This document shows positions 6,113 to 18,215 of a DNA stretch of 64,000 nt, in pieces. Positions within the stretch are counted from its first letter, which is position 1; each line of letters begins with the position of its first letter. A model generated the notes under the pieces. That model was given only the letters and a program-made list of their open reading frames with translations, was not told the origin of the DNA and ran no database searches. The DNA is from Klebsiella michiganensis (lineage in GTDB: Bacteria; Pseudomonadota; Gammaproteobacteria; Enterobacterales; Enterobacteriaceae): positions 310,001 through 374,000 of the forward strand of contig NZ_PRDB01000006.1 of NCBI RefSeq assembly GCF_002925905.1. Direction: 5' to 3'. The position numbers and the translations under genes are program-made.

Positions 6113-6658
6113 ATGAAAATTAGCAAAATTGCATCTGCTGTTGTTCTCACTATGGGTGTCGCCTCTTTCGCAGCTCAGGCCGATCAGGGAAGCGGCAAGG
6201 TGACTTTCTGGGGTTCCATTATTGATGCACCATGCTCAATCAAAAATGGTTACGGCGATCAGCGTATTGAACTGGGTCAGATTTCCAATACTCATTTAGA
6301 TAACGGCGGTATTTCCACTCCTCGTCCGTTCGACATCGAGCTGGAAAACTGCTCCTTCGAGAAGGATTCAAACGGCGACCCGATGTATAACACCGTTAAA
6401 GTGACCTTTGCTGGCGGTAATGTCCCAGGAGATATGACCATGTTGGCTATTTCCGGTCAGGCCGCTGGCGCCGGCGTGCGTATTGAAGATGGTTCTGGTC
6501 AACCCGTGACTTTATTGGTACCTACTAGCGGTCGCGGCCTGGGCATTGGCGACAATACCCTAAACTTCAGCGCTTACCTCGAAAAAATCTCTACCGTAAC
6601 CAACGTCACTCCGGGTGATTTTGAAGCAGTGACCAACTTTACCCTGGCTTATGAATAA
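6113..6658 (+). CDS. Major fimbrial subunit, PapA/MrpA-like
   Basis: This is a 181-aa pilin exported by Sec and assembled by the chaperone-usher pathway. The signal peptide ends at AAQA before DQGSG. Two cysteines (DAPCSI and LENCSF) are spaced as in pilins for the single disulphide. The C-terminal donor/acceptor strand ends in the typical FTLAYE with a penultimate Tyr. Being first in the locus, following the long regulatory region, and best fitting MrpA/PapA lengths marks it as the probable shaft subunit. A 67-bp gap containing a G/C stem (GGGCTGCA...TGCAGCCC) separates it from the next gene, which may reduce downstream transcription and give high shaft expression. Confidence 0.9.
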   Translation: MKISKIASAVVLTMGVASFAAQADQGSGKVTFWGSIIDAPCSIKNGYGDQRIELGQISNTHLDNGGISTPRPFDIELENCSFEKDSNGDPMYNTVKVTFAGGNVPGDMTMLAISGQAAGAGVRIEDGSGQPVTLLVPTSGRGLGIGDNTLNFSAYLEKISTVTNVTPGDFEAVTNFTLAYE

Positions 6659-6684
6659 GGTGAGTCCTGTTCTCATGTAGCTTT

Positions 6685-6708
6685 ATTCGGGCTGCATTTG
6701 CAGCCCGA
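6685..6708 (+). terminator. Stem-loop after the major pilin gene
   Basis: TTCGGGCTGCATTTGCAGCCCGA forms a stem CGGGCTGCA/TGCAGCCCG with almost no loop beyond TT, sitting between the first and second pilin genes. Such intercistronic hairpins often protect the shaft mRNA or attenuate downstream expression. A T tract is lacking. Confidence 0.5.
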
Positions 6709-6725
6709 TATTCAGGAGCACAGTC

Positions 6726-7259
6726 ATGGTAAATATATCGCGTTCTCTGATGTTGAGTTTGTTATTAGGCATATCACCGCTGTCTCAGGCATCCGACCAG
6801 GGGCGGGGCCTGGTTACAATGAATGGTCAAATTCAGGAGTCGGCCTGTTCTATTCATACCGACGATATCTGGCAGGAGATTCCATTCGGCGTGATCTCGT
6901 ATAGCGATCTTAATCAGGAAGGCAAAGCGGTCATCAAACCTTTTGCGGTTCGGCTGGTGAATTGCTCACTGGAACGGAGTCGCGGCGGTTTATGGCAAAG
7001 CGTAAATATTACCTTTAGTGGCGAAACGGAGATATTCCGCCCGGATATTTTTAAAGTCAATGGCGAGGCGCAGGGGCTTGGACTGCGTATCCACAATCAG
7101 GCTGGCGATGTGGCGCGTGATGGAATACCGATGCCTGCCGTCATGATCCAAAATGAAAATAATGAATTACGTTATTTATTATCGTTAGTGCGCGGTGGAA
7201 AAACGTTGTCAGAAGGCGACTGGTACGGAATTATTCGTTTCATGGTGACCTATCAGTAG
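6726..7259 (+). CDS. Fimbrial subunit, PapH/MrpB-like
   Basis: This 177-aa protein shares layout and sequence with the preceding pilin: signal peptide ending SQASDQGRG, paired cysteines in ESACSI and LVNCSL, and an end FMVTYQ. Position two, between the shaft pilin and usher, matches PapH and MrpB. In P and MR/P pili these terminate and anchor the fibre because they cannot accept a further donor strand. The assignment as anchor is from gene order and not from direct evidence. Confidence 0.82.
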   Translation: MVNISRSLMLSLLLGISPLSQASDQGRGLVTMNGQIQESACSIHTDDIWQEIPFGVISYSDLNQEGKAVIKPFAVRLVNCSLERSRGGLWQSVNITFSGETEIFRPDIFKVNGEAQGLGLRIHNQAGDVARDGIPMPAVMIQNENNELRYLLSLVRGGKTLSEGDWYGIIRFMVTYQ

Positions 7260-7365
7260 CGGGAAATATGAATGATAAAAACAGATGAGCCTCTCATCTA
7301 AATTATTTCCGGGATTGACGCTTCCCGCCGGTGAATTCTACCAGGCAATAAACGGATTTTAAAAA

Positions 7366-9867
7366 ATGAAAAAAAGCAGACCACCAGCTTTTTACCTGCG
7401 ACGTCTGGGTATTTACATTGCTATTGCCATTTTGGGTTCTACATCACCGGTAGTGGCGGTAGAATTTAATATTGATATTCTGGACTCGGAAGACCGGGAA
7501 AATATCGACTTATCGCGCTTTTCCCGGGCCGGCTATATTATGCCCGGAACCTATACGCTCAGCATGCGTTTAAATGAGCACGGTATTTCTGACCAGGAAA
7601 TTTCTTTTATTGAAAGAACCCGTGACGATGGGGTGGTTGTAGAAACCTGTCTGACGCCTGCGCAGGTCGAACTTCTCGGTCTGCGGGATGACGCGCTCAA
7701 CATGATTCAATGGCTCGACGAGGGGCGTTGCGCTGATTTTTCCGCTCTTGAAGGCGTCGTCCTGCGCGGCGATCTGTCAGAATCTTCCCTGCAAATTGCG
7801 GTCCCCCAGGCCTGGCTGGAATATCAGGATGCTTCGTGGCTGCCTGTTTCCCGCTGGGAAGAGGGCATCCCCGGGATGTTGGTTGACTATAACCTGAATA
7901 CCAACGTCACCTGGCCTCGTCAGGGCAATCAGAGCCAGAGTGCCAGTATCAGCGGTACAACAGGTGTTAACCTGGGTGCCTGGCGCCTGAGGGGGGATTA
8001 TCAGGGGAGCTATTACAATACGACCGGACGCGCGGATAAAAATTCACGTAATTTTGACTGGAGTCGTTTCTACGCCTATCGCGCGTTACCTGGAATGATG
8101 TCGAAACTCACCGTTGGTGAGGATTATCTCTCTTCCGATCTCTTTGACTCCTGGCGCTATACCGGTTTGTCGCTGGCGAGCGATGAAAGCCAGCTGCCGC
8201 CTAAACTTCGAGGCTACGCGCCTGAAGTCTCCGGCATTGCCCGTACCAACGCCAAAGTGACGGTCAGCCAACAGGGTCGAGTCATCTATGAAACGACGGT
8301 TGCCGCTGGCCCGTTTCGTATTCAGGAACTCAACAGCGCCCTGACCGGACGTCTGGATGTTCGCGTTGAAGAGCAGGATGGCTCCGTGCAGACATTCTCG
8401 GTTGAAACGGCTCAGGTTCCTTATCTGACGCGCCCCGGCCAGCTGCGTTATAAAATGACCACCGGTCGTCCGCGCGATTATAACCACAGCACTCAGGGAC
8501 CATACTTCGCCACAGGTGAGCTCTCGTGGGGGCTTACCAACGCGTGGTCGCTGTACGGAGGTGGCATTTTTTCCCAGGACTACAACAGCCTGGCGGTGGG
8601 GGCGGGTCGTGATATGAACGCCTTCGGGACACTTTCTGCTGACGTGACTCATGCCAGCGCGCGTTTCCCGGATGATAAAAAGAGGCAAGGGCGATCCTGG
8701 CGCCTGAGCTACTCCAAACGTTTTGATGAAATCAACAGTGAAGTGACGTTTGCCGGCTACCGTTTTTCTGAGCGCAACTATCTCACCATGGGTGAATATC
8801 TGGATATGCGCTATCGGGAAGGCTACGTCGGGAATAGCAAAGAGCTTTATACCCTCCAGGCGACCAAAAATTTCGCAGACCTGCGCCTGTCGACGCACAT
8901 CAACTGGTCGCATCAGACTTACTGGAACCGCCCGGCAACCGATCGCTACAGCGTGTCGCTGAATAAATATTTTGACCTCGGCGACTGGCGGCATCTGTCG
9001 TTGTCCCTCAACGCCGCCCGCAGTGAATTTAACGGGCGTAAGGATGACAGCGCCTATATCTCACTGACGATGCCGTTTGGATCGGGAACCGTTGGCTATA
9101 ACGGCAGCATGAGCCGCGACCGCTATACACAAAATGCCAGCTGGAGCCAAAGGCTGGATAACAACGACTATTACAGCATCAACGCCGGCAACAGCGTCGG
9201 CGGTGGGGAAGGCACTCGCAGCCAGATGAGCGGGTACTACTCGCACCTGGGCAATATGGCGGATGTCACCACCAACTTTAACTGGGCGCAAAGCCAGTAC
9301 TCCTCGTTTGGTATTTCCGCCAGCGGCGGTATGACCGCGACCGCTGAAGGCGTGGCGCTGCACCCTGGTGGGGTACAGGGTGGGACTCGTCTGATGGTCA
9401 GTACTGATGGGGTAAGCGATGTTCCGGTGGGCTTTCAGGGCCATACCAATGCTTTTGGCATCGCGGTAATCCCTGGGGTGCCAAATTACTATCGAACCCG
9501 CGCTGAGATTGACGTTAATCGTCTGCCAGACGATGTCGAGTCTGGCGGAACGCCGGTTGTTGAACTCGCCCTGACTGAAGGGGCCATCGGGTTCCGTCGT
9601 TTTGATGTGCTGAAAGGCTCTAAGGTCGTGGCCATCCTCAGCCAGGAAGATGGGCGCCATCCGCCATTCGGCGCCACGGTACATAACGCAAAAGATCGCG
9701 AACTGGGGATGGTCAGCGACAGCGGACTGGCCTGGTTGACCGGCGTGAATCCGGATGAACGCTTAACCGTGCACTGGAGTGGTTCCGCTCAGTGTGAAGT
9801 CGTACTGCCACGGGTTATCCCTGCACAGCAGCTATTGCTGCCGTGCAAACCGGTCACTCGCGGCTGA
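7366..9867 (+). CDS. Outer-membrane fimbrial usher, PapC-like
   Basis: This 833-aa protein is the outer-membrane assembly platform. After a signal peptide, the chaperone-binding N-domain starts with VEFNIDILDSEDRENIDLSRF. A long 24-strand beta-barrel region includes the plug domain, with sequences such as GRVIYETTVAAGPFRI. The two C-terminal domains end with a conserved-looking Cys pair (SAQCEVVLP and LLPCKP). Length matches PapC (about 836). A 106-bp non-coding gap lies upstream. It is the only usher in the locus and so must serve both halves. Confidence 0.95.
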   Translation: MKKSRPPAFYLRRLGIYIAIAILGSTSPVVAVEFNIDILDSEDRENIDLSRFSRAGYIMPGTYTLSMRLNEHGISDQEISFIERTRDDGVVVETCLTPAQVELLGLRDDALNMIQWLDEGRCADFSALEGVVLRGDLSESSLQIAVPQAWLEYQDASWLPVSRWEEGIPGMLVDYNLNTNVTWPRQGNQSQSASISGTTGVNLGAWRLRGDYQGSYYNTTGRADKNSRNFDWSRFYAYRALPGMMSKLTVGEDYLSSDLFDSWRYTGLSLASDESQLPPKLRGYAPEVSGIARTNAKVTVSQQGRVIYETTVAAGPFRIQELNSALTGRLDVRVEEQDGSVQTFSVETAQVPYLTRPGQLRYKMTTGRPRDYNHSTQGPYFATGELSWGLTNAWSLYGGGIFSQDYNSLAVGAGRDMNAFGTLSADVTHASARFPDDKKRQGRSWRLSYSKRFDEINSEVTFAGYRFSERNYLTMGEYLDMRYREGYVGNSKELYTLQATKNFADLRLSTHINWSHQTYWNRPATDRYSVSLNKYFDLGDWRHLSLSLNAARSEFNGRKDDSAYISLTMPFGSGTVGYNGSMSRDRYTQNASWSQRLDNNDYYSINAGNSVGGGEGTRSQMSGYYSHLGNMADVTTNFNWAQSQYSSFGISASGGMTATAEGVALHPGGVQGGTRLMVSTDGVSDVPVGFQGHTNAFGIAVIPGVPNYYRTRAEIDVNRLPDDVESGGTPVVELALTEGAIGFRRFDVLKGSKVVAILSQEDGRHPPFGATVHNAKDRELGMVSDSGLAWLTGVNPDERLTVHWSGSAQCEVVLPRVIPAQQLLLPCKPVTRG

Positions 9868-9886
9868 GAAAGTGAATGGTGATGTA

Positions 9887-10621
9887 ATGAAAAGCAAAAA
9901 GATAGCGATGACGATAGTGCTGGCAAGCCTGGCGGCAGGTCTGGTTAACGAAGCCGGGGCAGCGATTGCGCTGGACAGAACGCGGGCGATTTTCCCCGGT
10001 TCGGAAAAGAGCATTTCCCTGAGTATTACTAACGACAGCACGTCAATGCCGTACCTGGCGCAGGGATGGATTGAGGATGAACACGGGAAAAAAATCAGCG
10101 GTCCTCTGGTGGTTGTTCCGCCGCTGCAGCGTCTTGAAGCGAAAGGGAAGAGCATGATGCGTATCAACGCCATGCCGGATGCCGCGATGTTACCTCAGGA
10201 CAGAGAGAGCATTTTTTATTTCAACGTGCGCGAGGTGCCGCCAAAAAGCGAGCGACCCAACGTGATGCAGCTGGCGTTACACACCAAAATAAAATTGTTC
10301 TATCGCCCCAAAGCCATTCTGCCGGAGAAGTATAGCCGCTGGGATAACCAACTGGTGCTGCATAAAGTGAACGGCGGCTATCGGGTAGAAAACCCGACGC
10401 CCTATTACATGACGGTGATCGGGATTACCGCTGCGCCGAAAGTGGCGGTGGCCAGCGGATTTCAAACGGTGATGGTACCGCCGAAGTCCACCTCGATGGT
10501 CAATAGCGCGCACTATACCGTGCCGCATGTCACCACGATTAACGACTTCGGCGGTAAGCCAACCCTGCGGTTTAGCTGCAGCGGTAACATCTGCCAGGCT
10601 GCGGATACCCCGGCAAGCTGA
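9887..10621 (+). CDS. Periplasmic fimbrial chaperone 1, PapD-like
   Basis: This 244-aa chaperone binds pilins by donating its G1 strand. The track starts upstream inside the usher, but ATG 9,887 immediately precedes a proper signal peptide (MKSKKIAMTIVLASLAAGLVNEAGA). The mature start ALDRTRAIFPGSEKSISLSI carries the conserved Arg in strand A1. The G1 region RPNVMQLALHTKIKLFYRP has alternating hydrophobics and the conserved Lys. The FGS-type short F1-G1 loop is seen in REVPPKSERPNV. The gene begins 20 bp after the usher stop and its TGA overlaps the next ATG. Confidence 0.93.
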   Translation: MKSKKIAMTIVLASLAAGLVNEAGAAIALDRTRAIFPGSEKSISLSITNDSTSMPYLAQGWIEDEHGKKISGPLVVVPPLQRLEAKGKSMMRINAMPDAAMLPQDRESIFYFNVREVPPKSERPNVMQLALHTKIKLFYRPKAILPEKYSRWDNQLVLHKVNGGYRVENPTPYYMTVIGITAAPKVAVASGFQTVMVPPKSTSMVNSAHYTVPHVTTINDFGGKPTLRFSCSGNICQAADTPAS

Positions 10622-10653
10622 TGGACGCCGAAGCTGAACACAGGAGAAGCCTG

Positions 10654-11247
10654 ATGAAACAAGGATTTGGTCATACCACCCTCATGTTGTGGCTTTTGAT
10701 GGCTGGAGTCGTTTCCGCGTCGAGCGCCGCTAACTGGGATACCGATGGCCTGAATGGCGGCATTCGCGCAAGCGGAACGCTTGTTGCGTCACCGTGCGCG
10801 CTGCTGCCTGAGTCGGCAGAACAAGAGATCGATTTGGGCAGCACCGTTGCCTGGGGACTGGAACGGCCGGGTAGCGTTACGCCATCAGTACTGGTGTACA
10901 TCAAATTAGATCGTTGCCCGGGAGAATACTCGTTTATGCGCGATCGCCAAATGATGCGCGGCGCCACGATGTTAAACGGACAGTCTGCGGTAAGACTGAC
11001 TATCTATGGGGAAGCAGAACCGATGGATGACCGCTTTTTCCGGGTGCATGGTGGCGTAGAAGGGGTCGCGTTGCGCCTTAGCGACCGACAGGGAGAACTC
11101 CTACGACCCGCGATCCAGAGTCGACCGCAGATTCTCTATCCGGGACGCAACGATTTGGTGGTGCAGGCTCAGCTATGGCGTCTTCCCGCGCCGCTGATGG
11201 CTAATGAATGGCGCAGCGTGGTGAATATCGGCCTGGAGTACGAATAA
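10654..11247 (+). CDS. Minor fimbrial subunit
   Basis: This is a 197-aa secreted protein with a pilin-like pattern: signal peptide ending in SSAA, cysteines in ASPCAL and LDRCPG, and the terminal IGLEYE. An upstream start at 10,621 exists, but AGGAGAA before ATG 10,654 and the signal peptide favour the latter. It is longer and more divergent than the shaft pilin and has an insertion after the second cysteine. Order suggests a PapJ/MrpE-like or adaptor subunit. Its stop overlaps the start of the following gene (TAATG), which implies translational coupling. Confidence 0.8.
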   Translation: MKQGFGHTTLMLWLLMAGVVSASSAANWDTDGLNGGIRASGTLVASPCALLPESAEQEIDLGSTVAWGLERPGSVTPSVLVYIKLDRCPGEYSFMRDRQMMRGATMLNGQSAVRLTIYGEAEPMDDRFFRVHGGVEGVALRLSDRQGELLRPAIQSRPQILYPGRNDLVVQAQLWRLPAPLMANEWRSVVNIGLEYE

Positions 11248-11774
11248 TGAAAAAAAATATCGTGCGCGTACTCAGCCTGGCAAGCTTTCCTCTGCTGCTT
11301 GTGCTGACTGGTGTGTCGGTCACTCATGCCGATACTGACGTTCATTTCTCCGGGAATCTGATTGCCGACCCTTGTGAATTACACGTGGATTCAGAAGATC
11401 AGATTGTCGATTTTCGTAACGTGCCTTCTAAGACATTTATGAAATATCCCCGCAGCGAACGCGAGCGTTTTTCAATCTGGTTGACGGAGTGCGATCTCTC
11501 GCTGGGCGACACGGTGACCGTAACCTTTATGGGAACTGAGGATAGCGCTCAGCCAGGGCTATTCGCCGTCAGCGGAACGGCGAGTGGTATTGCCATTGCG
11601 CTGGAAGATGAGAACGGTACGCCGGTAAAACCCAATGTCCCTATGCGGCCGGCAGCATTGAAGGCGGGAGATACTTTTTTAAATTTTCAGGCCTTTATTT
11701 CCGCCCCGGTACACGGTCTGGTAAGAGAGGGGAATTTTGAGTGCATCACCACTTTTCTTCTGGAATATGATTAA
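11247..11774 (+). CDS. Minor fimbrial subunit, PapE/PapK-like
   Basis: This 175-aa pilin starts at ATG 11,247, overlapping the previous stop. The signal peptide ends at SVTHA. The mature region DTDVHFSGNLIADPCELHV contains the first Cys, with the partner Cys in LTECDLSL, and it ends in TFLLEYD. It is the last gene of the first fimbrial block; a 184-bp gap of low GC follows. Likely role is a tip-fibrillum or adaptor pilin. Confidence 0.82.
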   Translation: MKKNIVRVLSLASFPLLLVLTGVSVTHADTDVHFSGNLIADPCELHVDSEDQIVDFRNVPSKTFMKYPRSERERFSIWLTECDLSLGDTVTVTFMGTEDSAQPGLFAVSGTASGIAIALEDENGTPVKPNVPMRPAALKAGDTFLNFQAFISAPVHGLVREGNFECITTFLLEYD

Positions 11775-11958: not shown

Positions 11959-12348
11959 ATGTTTAAATCAGGATGTATAGCAGCGATCATCGCAGGTACA
12001 TTTTTAACGGGTTGCGTCGCAAAAAACATTCCGTCACAGGTTACCTCTTCCATGGAATCCGTGGATCCCCCCACGACTTCAGACGGGGAGTTGGATATGG
12101 TGCAGTGCGAAAAAGAACTCAGGGCGCTGGAGTCGATTAACCCTATTAAACATGTCGAGCTCAAGTCTCGCTTTGAGCGAGTGATGCTCGGCGCTTCCGG
12201 CTATACCAACGTACGAAGTTCCGTTAATCCTGAAACGCGTAATGCCATTGACGCTTTGTATAAGTTTCAGGCGGTAAAATTATGCTCGGAGGTCCGCGCC
12301 GAAATGCTCAATAGCCTCGCCGTGAAGCCAACGGGTGAGAATATTTAA
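11959..12348 (+). CDS. Small lipoprotein of the fimbrial locus
   Basis: This 129-aa protein has a lipoprotein signal peptide with lipobox LTGC (residues 15-18), so the mature protein is anchored in the outer or inner membrane. Residue +2 is Val, with no Asp retention signal, favouring the outer membrane. The mature region is helical and contains ESINPIKHVELKSRFERVMLGASGYTNVR. I recognise no named family. Its TAA overlaps the ATG of the coiled-coil/FKBP-like gene (TAATG), so the two are probably made together and may form one envelope complex for pilus assembly. Confidence 0.75.
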   Translation: MFKSGCIAAIIAGTFLTGCVAKNIPSQVTSSMESVDPPTTSDGELDMVQCEKELRALESINPIKHVELKSRFERVMLGASGYTNVRSSVNPETRNAIDALYKFQAVKLCSEVRAEMLNSLAVKPTGENI

Positions 12349-13703
12349 TGGATCGTAGAGCAGGGAACGTTTTGGTCCTGATGATGGGTATCGTTTTGAT
12401 TTCATCTTCACGGGCGGATGTGTTGAACTATGCTCGTGAATGGACGTCACGCAATGATGAAAATAAAGCCATTACATCCCCGTCTCAGCCACAAGCGGAG
12501 GAAGACAAATCTTCTGCGCCGCGTCAAAAATCTGCTGTACAGCGATCGCTGCCCGGTGAGAAATCTAAAGCTCCGCCTCCGGCGGCAACAAGAAAAAAAA
12601 GAGTACCACCGGCTGTTGCCGCCGATAAGCGAATGACATCACCTGCGATTACGCCTTCTAAACCGACGGATAAGCAGGCGCCAACGGTAGCGGAAGACCG
12701 GGACAAGTTAGTGGCTGGGGCCAGTAAGAATCCCTCTTTACCCGATCCCCAGATTTTGGGGCGCTGGTTTAAGGCGTTAAGGCAACATGCGTCACTGAGT
12801 CCCGCAGAGATTGATTTACGCGAAAATTTCCAGCTATCGCGCAATGAGGTAGAGAGATTGAAGGCTCAACTCGCTTTGCGACACCGTGAAGTACAGCAGC
12901 AGTTCGTTACCCTCCAGGCGGCTTCTGAACAGCTCGCCGCGGCAATGGAGAACAATGGCAAGCAACAACAGGAACTCCAGGCGCTCACCGTGCGTGCCAA
13001 TCAGCTGGAAGAGAAAAATGCGCAGTGGCAAGTAGTAACCAGAAAATTGCAATCGAGCCTTAAGCAAGCACAGCATCCCGCACTGCCGGCAACCGACGAT
13101 GAACTGGCCGATTTTGCCGCCGGGATGGCGATGGGGTTTGACATTTTGGGCGTACTCGAACAGCGGAATGAACAAGATGTTCATGTTGATAAGGCGGCCT
13201 TTCTGGCCGGTATTAGCGAAACGATACGCGGCGAACGCCGGCTATCTCAGGAGGAATTTGAGCGCCATCTTAACCGCGCCAATCAGCGAGTCGAGGATGC
13301 GATGCACAAGATCAAGCAGCAAAAGGAAGCGCGGGATAACGCATGGCTGGAGAAATTTCGCCAGGAGGAGGGCATACAAACTGCGGGTGAGCAGGCCTGG
13401 TATAAAGTCATCCATGCGGGAGAGCCGCTGTTCGAGGATGAGCACTCTGAAGCGGCGCTAACCATTTCGGTCAATCGCCGTCTGTCAGATGGTACCGTGA
13501 TTGCGGACACCGATCTGACGGGCCTGGTATTACAGGAAAAATTGTCCGATCTTCCTGGATGGCTTCAGATTGTGGTGAAGGATATTCGTCTTCATGGTGA
13601 AGCAGAGTTAGCCGTTAAGGTTGATGAGTATGGCGATCCTCGAAAACACGGGAATTATATTGAACATTGGCGCATTCGGGTAATTGAATCGCATGCAATG
13701 TAA
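12348..13703 (+). CDS. Exported coiled-coil protein with degenerate FKBP-type PPIase domains
   Basis: This 451-aa protein has a signal peptide or anchor (residues 1-23), a Pro/Lys/Ala-rich linker (about 45-120) and a coiled coil (about 160-242). The C-terminal part resembles the Mip/FkpA architecture. Residues about 251-345 match the helical FKBP dimerisation domain (FAAGMAMGFDILG, AFLAGISETIRGERRLSQEE, KFRQEEGIQT). Residues 346-450 resemble the FKBP barrel (AWYKVIHAGE, RRLSDGTVIADT, LPGWLQIV). Several active-site aromatics of FKBP are not obvious, so catalytic isomerase activity is doubtful. A chaperone or scaffold role in the periplasm for pilins is plausible. Such a gene is not part of the textbook pap, mrp or fim operons. 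Confidence 0.75.
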   Translation: MDRRAGNVLVLMMGIVLISSSRADVLNYAREWTSRNDENKAITSPSQPQAEEDKSSAPRQKSAVQRSLPGEKSKAPPPAATRKKRVPPAVAADKRMTSPAITPSKPTDKQAPTVAEDRDKLVAGASKNPSLPDPQILGRWFKALRQHASLSPAEIDLRENFQLSRNEVERLKAQLALRHREVQQQFVTLQAASEQLAAAMENNGKQQQELQALTVRANQLEEKNAQWQVVTRKLQSSLKQAQHPALPATDDELADFAAGMAMGFDILGVLEQRNEQDVHVDKAAFLAGISETIRGERRLSQEEFERHLNRANQRVEDAMHKIKQQKEARDNAWLEKFRQEEGIQTAGEQAWYKVIHAGEPLFEDEHSEAALTISVNRRLSDGTVIADTDLTGLVLQEKLSDLPGWLQIVVKDIRLHGEAELAVKVDEYGDPRKHGNYIEHWRIRVIESHAM

Positions 13704-13839: not shown

Positions 13840-14814
13840 ATGATGGATGACACCAGAGGTACCTATTTGCCGGTTTATGTGGCAACTGAGAATAATTATT
13901 TTTCTCAGGGGGTGGTCTTTCTCCTTGAGGAGTTATTTGAGGATGAGTTTAGCGGCAATATTACCGTATCCTTAGTCAAAAAATCGCAGGAAGCCGATCT
14001 CATTGTGCAAGTGCAATCTCCTGGGGAAAAAGCCTTTGACTGGGTCGATTGTCAACGATTTCGCGCCCACAATGACTATAAATTTAAGCTCCTCAAGAAA
14101 AAGTGGTTAAGCGTTTATCCACGTAGTGAACACTATGATAAAAACTTTCATTGCCCGGTTGTTAGTTCAGTTCTCGCGATGAGGAACTCAGTGGCGACCA
14201 TCCGGCGCAAACTGTTCATGCTGTTTTTCGCCGATCTCATGTGCGGGCCTCCGGACTTACGTAAACCAAATTGTAATAAATGTCCTGGTCCCTACCAGTT
14301 GACTTGGCGTGAACAGCTAATGCTAGGCTATTTGAGCCAGGGTTTAGGCCACGATGAAATTTCTCGCAAAATGGGCTGTAGTATTAAGGCGCTCAGTGGC
14401 TATCGACGCTCGATTATGCGGAAAGTCAATATCACCAGATACAGTGATTTCGTTTCGTGGCTGGGTACCAAATCGGTTTCTGATAAATATGCTGAGGTTG
14501 TTAATAATCACGAACGTGATGCGGATGAAGATCAGCTAATATGGAAAACCACGTTGTCTGGTGATATGGAGAGACAGCTCGATGATAAAGAGCGAGCTTT
14601 ACAAAGTATAAAACGCTTGACCAAAAAACGGTTACGAAAAAGCGAACTGGATGATGAGGTATGGCTGACAACGCGAGAAATAGCCAATGAGATGGATATC
14701 AGTATCTACAGCATGCGTTATTTATTATGCCAGATGGAATCAAACGGTAAAGTGATCAGTATCAAAACCGGAAAAGGGAGAAGTCATACTCTCCGCTGGA
14801 AGCTGGCAAGTTAA
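13840..14814 (+). CDS. Hybrid regulator: LuxR-type HTH plus PapI/FaeA-like winged helix
   Basis: This is a 324-aa cytoplasmic protein. ATG 13,840 is preferred over the track start (13,792) because AGAGGAG lies 5-11 bases before it. Residues about 153-208 (QLTWREQLMLGYLSQGLGHD then a recognition helix) form a LuxR/GerE HTH. Residues about 276-322 (WLTTREIANEMDISIYSMRY and a basic wing GKGRSHTLRW) resemble the PapI/FaeA winged helix that works with Lrp in phase variation. Four cysteines in or near residues 135-149 (CGPPDLRKPNCNKCPG) could bind metal or sense redox. The N-terminus is not a receiver domain. It probably controls this fimbrial locus or motility. Confidence 0.75.
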   Translation: MMDDTRGTYLPVYVATENNYFSQGVVFLLEELFEDEFSGNITVSLVKKSQEADLIVQVQSPGEKAFDWVDCQRFRAHNDYKFKLLKKKWLSVYPRSEHYDKNFHCPVVSSVLAMRNSVATIRRKLFMLFFADLMCGPPDLRKPNCNKCPGPYQLTWREQLMLGYLSQGLGHDEISRKMGCSIKALSGYRRSIMRKVNITRYSDFVSWLGTKSVSDKYAEVVNNHERDADEDQLIWKTTLSGDMERQLDDKERALQSIKRLTKKRLRKSELDDEVWLTTREIANEMDISIYSMRYLLCQMESNGKVISIKTGKGRSHTLRWKLAS

Positions 14815-15023: not shown

Positions 15024-15779
15024 ATGAAACTTAAATTAACGTCTTTTCTGGGTATTCTACTGTTTACCGGAAGCCAGCATTCAGCTCAGGCTGCATTATC
15101 TGTGGAACGCTCCCGGGTTATTTTCAATGAAGGGGAGAAATCTGTCGGATTGAGCGTGAAAAATAATAATACGCAGGATCCCTATCTCGCCCAGGGGTGG
15201 ATGGAAAATGAGAAAGAAGAAAAAATAAACGGCCCTCTGATGATTTTACCGCCCGTACAGCGTATTGAGCCCGACGGTAGAACGATGATCAGGGTACAGC
15301 AGGTTGCGGATGCCTCTTCACTGCCCAACGACAGAGAAAGCGTATTCTGGCTTAACTTACGCGAGATCCCGCCAAAATCCGACAAGCCTAACGTTCTGAT
15401 GCTGGCTATGCAGACGCGAATGAAAGTGTTCTGGCGACCAAAGGGGATTAAGGTGGATCCCTTGCTTGATGCGGTGCCCGGCGTAGAAACGCTGACCCTC
15501 GCTCTTAAGGGGGACCGCTATGAGGTTAATAATCCGACACCGTACCATTTTTCATTTGTTGAAGCGCGTGACAGCCTGAACGGAAAAGCGCTGGACGATT
15601 TCGAGCCCGTGATGGTTTCTCCAAAAGATAAAGCGGCGCTGACGCTACCCACCTTGCGGTTGGGAAATAATCCGACGCTGATGTTTATTAATGATTATGG
15701 CAGCGCGCGATTATTACCGTTTACCTGCACCGGGACGCTGTGCCGGGCGGGAAAAGTGGCACTACCAAAGGAAGGCTGA
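15024..15779 (+). CDS. Periplasmic fimbrial chaperone 2, PapD-like
   Basis: This 251-aa chaperone is clearly related to chaperone 1 (shared PYLAQGW, NGPL/SGPL, REIPPKS/REVPPKS) but much diverged. The signal peptide ends in SAQA before ALSVERSRVIF, which has the conserved Arg. The G1 strand is NVLMLAMQTRMKVFWRP with the conserved Lys or Arg contacts. It starts a second block of structural genes after the regulator, and its TGA lies one base before the next ATG. It probably serves the three related minor pilins and adhesin encoded downstream. Confidence 0.92.
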   Translation: MKLKLTSFLGILLFTGSQHSAQAALSVERSRVIFNEGEKSVGLSVKNNNTQDPYLAQGWMENEKEEKINGPLMILPPVQRIEPDGRTMIRVQQVADASSLPNDRESVFWLNLREIPPKSDKPNVLMLAMQTRMKVFWRPKGIKVDPLLDAVPGVETLTLALKGDRYEVNNPTPYHFSFVEARDSLNGKALDDFEPVMVSPKDKAALTLPTLRLGNNPTLMFINDYGSARLLPFTCTGTLCRAGKVALPKEG

Positions 15780-15780
15780 T

Positions 15781-16308
15781 ATGACGCGCCAACACTCAAT
15801 AACATCCCGAGCGTATCTGATGATGGCTGGAGCCTTACTGCTTTTTTCCGGCGGACAGGCGAAGGCCGCTGAAGGAGATACCACCACTATCACCGTCAAC
15901 GGCACCCTGATCGATGGGCCGCAGTGCGTTATTGACGGTAACAACACCGTAGACGTGAAGTTTGGTGATGATCTGATTACTCGTCTGGTAGACGGAGTGA
16001 ATTATAAGAAAGAGATTCAATATGGCCTCACCTGTACTGGCCTGAACAGTAATGCCCTCAAACTGACGATTCGAGGGTCTCTGGCGAGTTTTGGCAGCGG
16101 TCTTTTGTTGACCAGTAAAGGGGGCCTGGGCATACGGCTGTACAGTGGAAGTGCCGGCACCACGCTCATGACTCCCGGCAATTATGTCAACTTCAATGGC
16201 ACAGCCAATAAACCCAGGCTGTGGGCCGTACCCGTGGCTCAGAATAACGCCACGCTTACCGCAGGTCCGTTTTTCGGCACAGGCACCATGGTCATTGACT
16301 ACCAGTGA
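15781..16308 (+). CDS. Minor fimbrial subunit (tip block, first paralogue)
   Basis: This is a 175-aa pilin. The track start lies inside the chaperone gene; ATG 15,781 gives a good signal peptide ending in GGQAKAAEG. Conserved pieces are GPQCVIDGNNTVDVKFGDDL and YGLTCTG with the disulphide cysteines, and the end GTMVIDYQ. It is paralogous to the two following genes: all contain a pattern C-x(n)-V-x-FG-(D/N)-x-(I/V/L)-x-T/K-R/K then G-x-x-Y. It resembles MrpF/MrpG/PapF-type adaptors. Confidence 0.85.
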   Translation: MTRQHSITSRAYLMMAGALLLFSGGQAKAAEGDTTTITVNGTLIDGPQCVIDGNNTVDVKFGDDLITRLVDGVNYKKEIQYGLTCTGLNSNALKLTIRGSLASFGSGLLLTSKGGLGIRLYSGSAGTTLMTPGNYVNFNGTANKPRLWAVPVAQNNATLTAGPFFGTGTMVIDYQ

Positions 16309-16328
16309 CGCGAGAGGAGAGAGACATA

Positions 16329-16814
16329 GTGACCCCCATAAATCTGCGTGGCCTGGTGCTTCCCCTTACGTTGTGCTTTGGCACCAGCGCGCTGGCCGAC
16401 GCAACGGTTAACTTTAGCGGCACCTTAATAGAAGCGCCTCCGTGCGTGGTACATAACAATAACGTTATCACCGTCAACTTTGGCAACGAGGTGATGACCA
16501 CCCGTATCGACGGGACGCAATACCGGAAGCTGATTGATTTCGATTTAGATTGCTCCATGGCGGTATCGTCAAAACAGAAAGTGCGCATAACGGGGACAGC
16601 GGCAAGCTTTGACAGCACGGCGCTGGCGGGAGGTCAAAGCGGGCTGGGCATCGCCCTGTACAATGGTGATACCCGCCTTAACGTTGGCACCTGGCTAAAT
16701 TTCACCGACCCCAATATCCCCAAGCTTTACGCCGCCCCCATCAAACAAAGCGGAGTGACTCTGAGCGGTGGGCCGTTCAGGGTCATGGCTTCGCTTGTCG
16801 TGGAGTATCAGTAA
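16329..16814 (+). CDS. Minor fimbrial subunit (tip block, second paralogue)
   Basis: This 161-aa pilin is best read from GTG 16,329, which has GAGAGGAGAG upstream and yields a normal signal peptide ending SALADA. The track start (GTG 16,305) would overlap the previous gene and add charged residues before it. The mature part has APPCVVHNNNVITVNFGNEV and FDLDCSM, ending SLVVEYQ. It follows its paralogue by 20 bp. Confidence 0.82.
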   Translation: MTPINLRGLVLPLTLCFGTSALADATVNFSGTLIEAPPCVVHNNNVITVNFGNEVMTTRIDGTQYRKLIDFDLDCSMAVSSKQKVRITGTAASFDSTALAGGQSGLGIALYNGDTRLNVGTWLNFTDPNIPKLYAAPIKQSGVTLSGGPFRVMASLVVEYQ

Positions 16815-16832
16815 ATGGCGCAGGGAAACAAC

Positions 16833-17333
16833 ATGATGAAATTGAGCGGATATGCCCCCTTGCTGTTGGTCGGCCTGATGATGACGTCATCTCTTCAGGC
16901 GGCAGACCCGGAAAACCTCGAGTTTATCGGCACTCTGGTGACGCCACCGGCTTGCTCAATAAGCGAAGGCGGCCCTGTGTATGTGGATTTCGGTGATGTC
17001 CGAATAAAAAAAATCGTGGAGGGAAAATACCGTGAAACCGTTCCACTAACCCTGAAATGTGAAGACAGCACCCTTGCATGGCAGCTGCGGCTTAGCGTAC
17101 GCGGTAACGCGGCCGGGTTTGATGCCGACAATGCCACCGTGGTGACCCCTGAGCAGGCCAATCTTGGCGTGAAAATCTACCAGAACGGCCAGCCGTTTAA
17201 GCTGGGCGAGGCCATCAACATCAATAGCGTGACGCTGCCGAGTATTGAAGCTCTCCTTGTTCAGCGCAACGGGGTGGAGTTGGTGGAAGGATTATTTAGC
17301 GCCACCGCAACCCTGCGGGCCGAATACCAGTAA
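16833..17333 (+). CDS. Minor fimbrial subunit (tip block, third paralogue)
   Basis: This 166-aa pilin is read from ATG 16,833, with the signal peptide MMKLSGYAPLLLVGLMMTSS ending LQAADP. An in-frame ATG at 16,815 immediately follows the previous stop and cannot be excluded. Motifs are PPACSISEGGPVYVDFGDVR and LTLKCED, ending ATLRAEYQ. With its two neighbours it forms a tandem family likely to build a tip fibrillum. Confidence 0.82.
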   Translation: MMKLSGYAPLLLVGLMMTSSLQAADPENLEFIGTLVTPPACSISEGGPVYVDFGDVRIKKIVEGKYRETVPLTLKCEDSTLAWQLRLSVRGNAAGFDADNATVVTPEQANLGVKIYQNGQPFKLGEAININSVTLPSIEALLVQRNGVELVEGLFSATATLRAEYQ

Positions 17334-17360
17334 CGCTATTTTATGCACAGGAGAGTGCAG

Positions 17361-18215
17361 GTGAAGAAAAAGCTATTTCAGGCAGCCTTAGCGGCAGCCA
17401 TGATCGTGCCGGTTTCTGTACCCGTGTACGGTGAAAACTATCGGTGGAAAACGGTCACCGCAGTAAGGTTGGTCCCTTTCGGTACGGGTACTGAGTGGAT
17501 TATCACCACAGGTGATATTACCGTGAGTTCAGGTAGCGTCAGCCTGGATACACCAGCGAACTTAGGCAGTAATGGCGGGCTTTTGGTTGCAAACGCGCTG
17601 ACTGCGAATGGCGACTTTTGGGGGACATCGGATGTTGCCACGAGTTATCCTCCGCCCGGCGTCCCGTATAAGGGAACCTGGCGAGAAGTGCTTAACGCGA
17701 GCGTCGATAGCGTCAGAAATCAAATTTCCATCCGAAATTATAGTGTCGTGGGAGGCTCTTCCACCGTCTGCTTTGGATACACGCTTCGTGAAGCTAATGG
17801 TAACTTTAATTTTTCCGACCTTGTTTATCCGCCGGGAGCCGGTAGCGGTATAAACTGCATGACGGCGCCACCGCTAAACGAGTGGTGCGCCATGTCTGTG
17901 CCTCAGGTAACGCTAAGTTTCGGTACGCTAATGCTTGACCAGGCGGCGGGCAAAACGGCTGATAGTACGGTGGGCGTTTCCTGCACGTCTTCCTCGGTGA
18001 GCTATGTGTTAAAGCTACAAACAGGCAATACCTATATCCCGCTCAGCAACGGCATGCGTGCCAATCTGGGACTTGGGGCAGCTAACTCAGCGCCGGGTAA
18101 TACCACCTACTCCGGCTCTCAGTCCTCGCTACGGTTAAGAGGAACGCTGGCTGGGACGCCAACCTCGACCGGCGCCTTCAACGGAACCGGCGTGATGATG
18201 GTGGTTTATAACTAA
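17361..18215 (+). CDS. Two-domain tip adhesin, MrpH/PapG-like organisation
   Basis: This is a 284-aa secreted protein, roughly one pilin longer than its neighbours. GTG 17,361 follows GGAGAG at a good distance and starts the signal peptide (VKKKLFQAALAAAMIVPVSV). The N-terminal about 170 residues form a unique domain with no pilin motif, the expected receptor-binding domain. From EWCAMSVPQVTLSFGTL onward the protein reads as a pilin domain with cysteines in WCAM and VSCTS and the end GVMMVVYN. Being last in the locus fits a tip adhesin. The ligand is unknown. Confidence 0.8.
   Translation: MKKKLFQAALAAAMIVPVSVPVYGENYRWKTVTAVRLVPFGTGTEWIITTGDITVSSGSVSLDTPANLGSNGGLLVANALTANGDFWGTSDVATSYPPPGVPYKGTWREVLNASVDSVRNQISIRNYSVVGGSSTVCFGYTLREANGNFNFSDLVYPPGAGSGINCMTAPPLNEWCAMSVPQVTLSFGTLMLDQAAGKTADSTVGVSCTSSSVSYVLKLQTGNTYIPLSNGMRANLGLGAANSAPGNTTYSGSQSSLRLRGTLAGTPTSTGAFNGTGVMMVVYN

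Follow-up and report, generated by a model that had tools for sequence, protein, structure and literature searches.

Overlapping genes for a lipoprotein and an FkpA-like coiled-coil protein within and away from pilus operons

In Klebsiella michiganensis we identified a pair of adjacent genes, encoding a small lipoprotein (LIPO) and a secreted FkpA-like coiled-coil protein (FKCC), that lies inside a chaperone-usher pilus operon in the window (the 64,000-nucleotide stretch analysed here, on contig C29 of a 6.19-Mb genome) and that occurs widely elsewhere without pilus genes. FKCC has the fold of FkpA, and its prolyl isomerase pocket is gone. As a tentative explanation, the best we can offer, the pair would anchor an isomerase-dead, FkpA-like holdase or tether at the outer membrane and would be a general module that some pilus operons have taken up. 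We found no published description of the pair in the literature. The pair and its surroundings comprise the following features.

6113 to 11774, plus strand: upstream half of the fimbrial operon, with two pilins, the usher (7366-9867), a chaperone and two minor subunits (ORFs, Pfam)
11959 to 12348, plus strand: LIPO gene, 129-aa lipoprotein (ORF confirmed), with a disordered tether (about aa 20-46), a three-helix domain (aa 47-122) and a cysteine pair (C50/C109)
12346 to 12350, plus strand: TAATG stop/start overlap of LIPO and FKCC (from the sequence)
12348 to 13703, plus strand: FKCC gene, 451-aa secreted FkpA-like coiled-coil protein (ORF confirmed)
12420 to 12449, plus strand: N-terminal motif of mature FKCC, VLNYAREWTS, a candidate docking helix
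12465 to 12752, plus strand: linker of FKCC, aa 40-135, of low complexity, rich in Pro, Ala and Lys (composition) and predicted to be disordered
12804 to 13067, plus strand: coiled coil of FKCC, aa 153-240, a single helix (pLDDT about 84) with heptads over aa 155-243
13095 to 13364, plus strand: FKBP_N domain of FKCC, aa 250-339, the chaperone-type dimerisation domain of FkpA/Mip (Pfam PF01346, AF2, Foldseek)
13374 to 13694, plus strand: degenerate FKBP barrel of FKCC, aa 343-449, with the pocket residues and 80s loop gone (AF2, Foldseek)
13840 to 14814, plus strand: regulator with LuxR-type (GerE) and FaeA/PapI-type domains in one protein (Pfam)
15024 to 18215, plus strand: downstream half of the fimbrial operon, with a second chaperone, three pilins and an MrpH_C-like adhesin (17343-18215) whose MrpH_C match lies below the Pfam curated cut-off (ORFs, Pfam)

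The LIPO stop codon (TAA, 12346-12348) and the FKCC start codon (ATG, 12348-12350) have one base in common, and this overlap is kept in 64 of the 79 relatives with FKCC immediately downstream, as a gap of -4 in 56 and of -1 in 8. Across 73 loci, the distance matrices of the two proteins were correlated (r 0.79), with none of 2000 permutations reaching as high a value. Together, adjacency, coupling and co-divergence provide good genetic support for LIPO and FKCC being partners, as a preliminary description of this DNA had proposed in treating the two genes as a unit that interrupts the pilus locus. The interruption is equally clear: pilus genes flank the pair on both sides, and in a related operon (G112; usher 83% identical) the PilF ORF ends at 7313 and the CHAP2 ORF starts at 7317, a 3-bp junction with neither LIPO nor FKCC. 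A GerE plus FaeA regulator, which the preliminary description had not listed, follows the pair in mid-operon in the window and at locus L046 and at the operon end at L047 and L048; in G010 and G015 the LIPO-FKCC-regulator cassette is found at the end of the operon rather than in the middle; this difference in position indicates that LIPO, FKCC and the regulator move together. At L043, for example, the GerE and FaeA/PapI-type domains are encoded by separate neighbouring genes.

The lipobox of LIPO reads L-T-G-C19, with Val at the +2 position in the window protein (LTGC-V), and Asp never occupies this (Lol) position in the 59 sequences scored. LIPO thus has what marks an outer-membrane lipoprotein at the sequence level, a lipobox Cys and a non-Asp +2 residue, and by the +2 rule would be sorted to the outer membrane. 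Besides the lipid-bearing Cys, mature LIPO contains exactly two cysteines in 59/59 scored proteins, and C50, C109, Y82, R86 and D98 are present in 65/65 relatives; C50 and C109 probably form a disulfide. The AF2 model shows a three-helix domain with pLDDT >90 across aa 50-119. LIPO matched no family in Pfam and NCBIfam, and a Foldseek search of the model against the PDB returned nothing below an E value of 1. PulS/OutS pilotins are small helical outer-membrane lipoproteins with a disulfide, to which LIPO is comparable, and a pilotin identity was suggested to us by YacC, which adjoins a second copy of the pair. We rejected it: YacC matches PulS_OutS (PF09691), whereas LIPO has no PF09691 match, and Foldseek returned no pilotin fold for it. 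In the LIPO copy of K. oxytoca NBRC 105695 (L120, about 10060-10075), a poly-A run right after the lipobox carries a frame change, which may reflect phase variation, decay or a sequencing error. More distant LIPO-like lipoproteins are encoded without an FKCC neighbour at L102:9329, L103:9892, L105:9300 and L118:9789, the first of these adjoining a gene for a Sel1-repeat lipoprotein.

FKCC begins with a signal peptide and a Pro/Ala/Lys-rich linker; a coiled coil follows, then the FKBP_N domain and, last, the degenerate FKBP barrel. Pfam FKBP_N (PF01346) matched aa 255-354 (E 1.7e-10; 42 bits against a cut-off of 22), and phmmer aligned aa 245-424 with E. coli FkpA 1q6h (E 1.2e-12). In the AF2 model, a helix (153-240), the FKBP_N helices (250-339) and the barrel (343-449) follow a linker with pLDDT <50 (aa 39-132), and the top Foldseek match was FkpA 1q6u (E 2e-14); the barrel comes after a long helix, as in the FkpA/Mip-like fold. 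These results, together with the pocket residues considered below, bear out the preliminary description, which had read a coiled coil, a Mip/FkpA-like dimerisation domain and an eroded FKBP barrel from the sequence and had named structure prediction of the 451-aa protein as a check. Pfam FKBP_C matched an FKCC paralog and gave no match in the window FKCC. FKCC is no FkpA equivalog, scoring 41.9 bits against the NCBIfam PRK10902 cut-off of 215, and FkpA itself is encoded elsewhere in the genome, on contig C27. At the mature N terminus, the motif has counterparts such as PALLQFAEQYQ and PAFLNYAKEQQ in relatives, with L26 and A29 nearly invariant (alignment A4).

Aligning FKCC proteins to FkpA, we found that Y26, F36 and D37 of the pocket are each kept in 0/73 and W59 in 1/73, that Y82 and G83 are kept in 68/73 and 67/73, respectively, and that the clade of the window FKCC additionally lacks the 80s loop. 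Loss of the PPIase pocket throughout the family is well supported by this alignment. If FKCC were an active prolyl isomerase accelerating the folding of pilins, its FKBP fold and the retention of Y82/G83 in most relatives would fit, but such a role can hardly be reconciled with Phe36, Asp37 and Tyr26 missing in 73/73, Trp59 missing in 72/73 and the absent 80s loop of the window clade; on the pocket residues we rejected FKCC as a catalytic FKBP-type PPIase. FkpA does not depend on its PPIase domain to act as a chaperone: this activity resides in the N-domain, through which it dimerises (PMC8469651, PMC3179164), which is why we read FKCC as a holdase. An N-domain of this type is the domain that FKCC has retained best, although holdase activity and its clients are a guess by analogy with FkpA.

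FKCC varies from 320 to 1429 aa among relatives, mainly through repeats in the coiled coil and linker. Long relatives of 819-1429 aa are found at L053:6417-10307, where DNA tandem repeats of 96/192 bases lie within the coiled coil, and at L163, L179 and L049. The longest (1296-1429 aa in total, with coiled coils of several hundred residues) go beyond the length that chaperone work calls for, which suggests that they serve as spacers or scaffolds. They favour the main rival to our explanation, a structural tether in which LIPO fixes the outer-membrane end, the FKCC coiled coil bridges the periplasm or acts as a scaffold in it, the FKBP_N/barrel head only dimerises and binds, and length tunes reach. 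We consider this rival possible but rather doubtful. The length range, linker repeats such as PEKAEPVKPAAQQ at L049 and the lost pocket all agree with it, but almost every member retains the FkpA-like head, a barrel would be superfluous for dimerisation alone, and the searched libraries revealed no peptidoglycan- or inner-membrane-binding domain. The holdase explanation has difficulties of its own: a barrel kept despite the lost pocket must do something outside that explanation, and the family-wide N-terminal motif PALLxFA, which has no known partner, counts against it.

The window genome has three LIPO-FKCC pairs, and both extra copies lie away from pilus loci: one between speE and yacC, with a LIPO 32% identical to that of the window over 104 aa (E 2e-20), and one on contig C28 (L100:10363-12485) that is strongly diverged, with no pilus genes recognised nearby. 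LIPO profile matches occur in 68/295 family genomes (about a quarter), and an order-level sample of 395 genomes added only one match outside the family. Of the 73 distinct pairs, 28 have a window-type usher close by and 6 an usher of another type, 12 occupy the speE-yacC slot, and 27 lack any usher within 10.5 kb. These labels are approximate, since some ushers are concealed by contig ends or ORF masking, as at L149, where the usher was found separately. The 12 speE-yacC loci form a single clade (support 100/100), and the fimbrial label requires 8 changes on the FKCC tree. PADLOC gave no match, and we dropped an anti-phage defence role. A Pix-like operon on an E. coli plasmid (L040:3125-14127) has FKCC, LIPO and a DsbA-family gene downstream; this FKCC-LIPO stretch is near-complete in only 2/5426 complete E. 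coli genomes, and E. coli genomes gave no match at the DNA level to the pair of the window. EAL-domain genes lie beside related pilus or LIPO-FKCC loci at L039:7735-9066 (annotated) and at L186:10416-11150 and L187:10343-11065 (both judged by eye from sequence).

The preliminary description had proposed that the pair is an accessory secretion or folding device for pilins, and the association with pilus loci is real. When the family was sampled evenly (295 genomes, with 61 strong LIPO genes and 106 window-type ushers), 14/61 LIPO genes were within 15 kb of such an usher, against 0.6 expected under uniform placement. Among 14 collapsed loci, Mantel correlations were 0.64 for usher-FKCC and 0.82 for usher-LIPO, with 0.92 for the usher-chaperone control, supporting co-divergence of the pair with the ushers of the pilus loci where it sits. 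This co-divergence, the enrichment and the shared LuxR/FaeA-type regulators all point to a dedicated factor for folding, secretion or usher gating, serving the pilins or adhesin of the window fimbrial type. By contrast, with at most three usher candidates scored per genome, only 14/106 window-type ushers had the pair nearby, and it is absent from the G112 operon, so that it is not found in most operons of this usher type, as a core chaperone-usher component would be. Several conserved chromosomal slots also contain the module with no pilus genes beside it. In Erwinia aphidicola (L127), the order is mtlR-yibL-GerE-LIPO-FKCC-FaeA (mtlR, yibL and so on are presumptive names, read from the protein sequences rather than from a database result), and pilus genes are absent; its closest FKCC relatives, L128 and L129 (support 100/99), share its downstream flank and are preceded by pilus genes. 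Absence of pilus genes from a site orthologous to these two indicates that the module persists without a pilus. Absence of the pair from most related operons, in turn, indicates that the pair is dispensable for the window pilus type. A dedicated pilin device is improbable as an account of the pair, though it may apply to the fimbrial copies. Of what the preliminary description had anticipated, occurrence in further fimbrial loci was found, as was the wide occurrence outside them that it had set against its own proposal; the other known role that it had coupled with the latter was not, none being known.

In a further alternative, a PglL-like ligase that in some lineages lies next to LIPO glycosylates the Pro/Ala/Ser-rich linker of FKCC, or the pilins, and the pair presents the substrate. 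A gene with Wzy_C and Wzy_C_2 (and PglL_A) domains lies close upstream of LIPO in 9/73 distinct pairs, L180 is a tenth case with the gene in the vicinity, and L113 is a stand-alone PglL-LIPO-FKCC-LuxR locus. We nevertheless think this alternative very unlikely: the window genome gave no ligase match (in a search run without a positive control), and the ligase tracks the usher rather than the pair, with 23/92 pair-less ushers having a ligase (Fisher p 0.06). We therefore set aside the ligase as a partner of the pair, since the association is largely explained by the usher. Independently of LIPO-FKCC, genes resembling PglL/Wzy_C-type O-oligosaccharyltransferases (L112:10394-12184 and relatives) lie within 15 kb of 30/106 window-type ushers, and 30/46 PglL-like matches in the sample, a few of them fragments of one gene, are near such an usher. 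The PglL-like gene is possibly a dedicated glycan ligase of this chaperone-usher pilus family; we found no literature report of the association.

In the holdase explanation, LIPO and FKCC would be subunits of one envelope complex, co-produced through coupled translation. LIPO, lipid-anchored in the outer membrane, would face the periplasm with a small helical domain that a disulfide probably braces, and secreted FKCC would dock on the membrane side, most likely onto LIPO via the conserved N-terminal motif. The flexible linker and coiled coil would carry FKCC into the periplasm, where it may dimerise via its FkpA-type N-domain, the V-shaped dimer head acting as an isomerase-independent holdase for unfolded or exported proteins and thereby keeping FkpA-like chaperone capacity at the outer membrane. 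Some pilus operons would have taken up this module with a LuxR/FaeA-type regulator, and there it might aid subunits or adhesin without being required. Periplasmic chaperones are usually pictured as freely diffusing; if the explanation is true, a pseudo-FKBP module coupled to a lipoprotein fixes chaperone capacity at the outer membrane without isomerase activity. A bolder proposal, which we regard as unlikely, makes the pair a widespread, undescribed enterobacterial envelope machine, in which the outer-membrane lipoprotein tethers an FkpA-like, isomerase-dead dimer by an adjustable arm of coiled coil. This machine would hold exported surface proteins at the outer membrane or deliver them there, and pilus operons and O-glycosylation ligases would have recruited it repeatedly.

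Comparison with known systems sets the pair apart from each of them. The window operon is of the same general kind as Pap/Pix/Mrp-type chaperone-usher operons, with its usher, two chaperones and MrpH_C-like adhesin, but LIPO-FKCC is no regular part of these (near 14/106 related ushers). Myxococcus MasABK, considered as an analogue, proved unrelated. The FKBP-type proteins GldI and BamJ and the PPIase-like chain of the type 9 translocon (6h3i), all from Bacteroidota, link the FKBP fold to envelope machines and gave weak matches to FKCC, its relatives scoring 23.3-23.6 bits where the cut-offs are 100 and 157.6; we know of no LIPO partner for any of the three. Legionella Mip and Pseudomonas FkbA have the same two-domain fold and dimer type as FKCC (Foldseek), but they are catalytic and are not known to have an FKCC-like coiled-coil extension or a coupled lipoprotein. 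Closest in both sequence and structure is periplasmic FkpA of E. coli (1q6h/1q6u), in which FKBP_N, a long linker helix and the FKBP barrel follow in the order common to FKCC. FkpA, however, is a protein of about 270 aa whose pocket is intact and whose gene has no lipoprotein gene as a partner, whereas FKCC lacks the catalytic pocket and adds a conserved N-terminal motif, a low-complexity linker and a coiled coil that varies in length.
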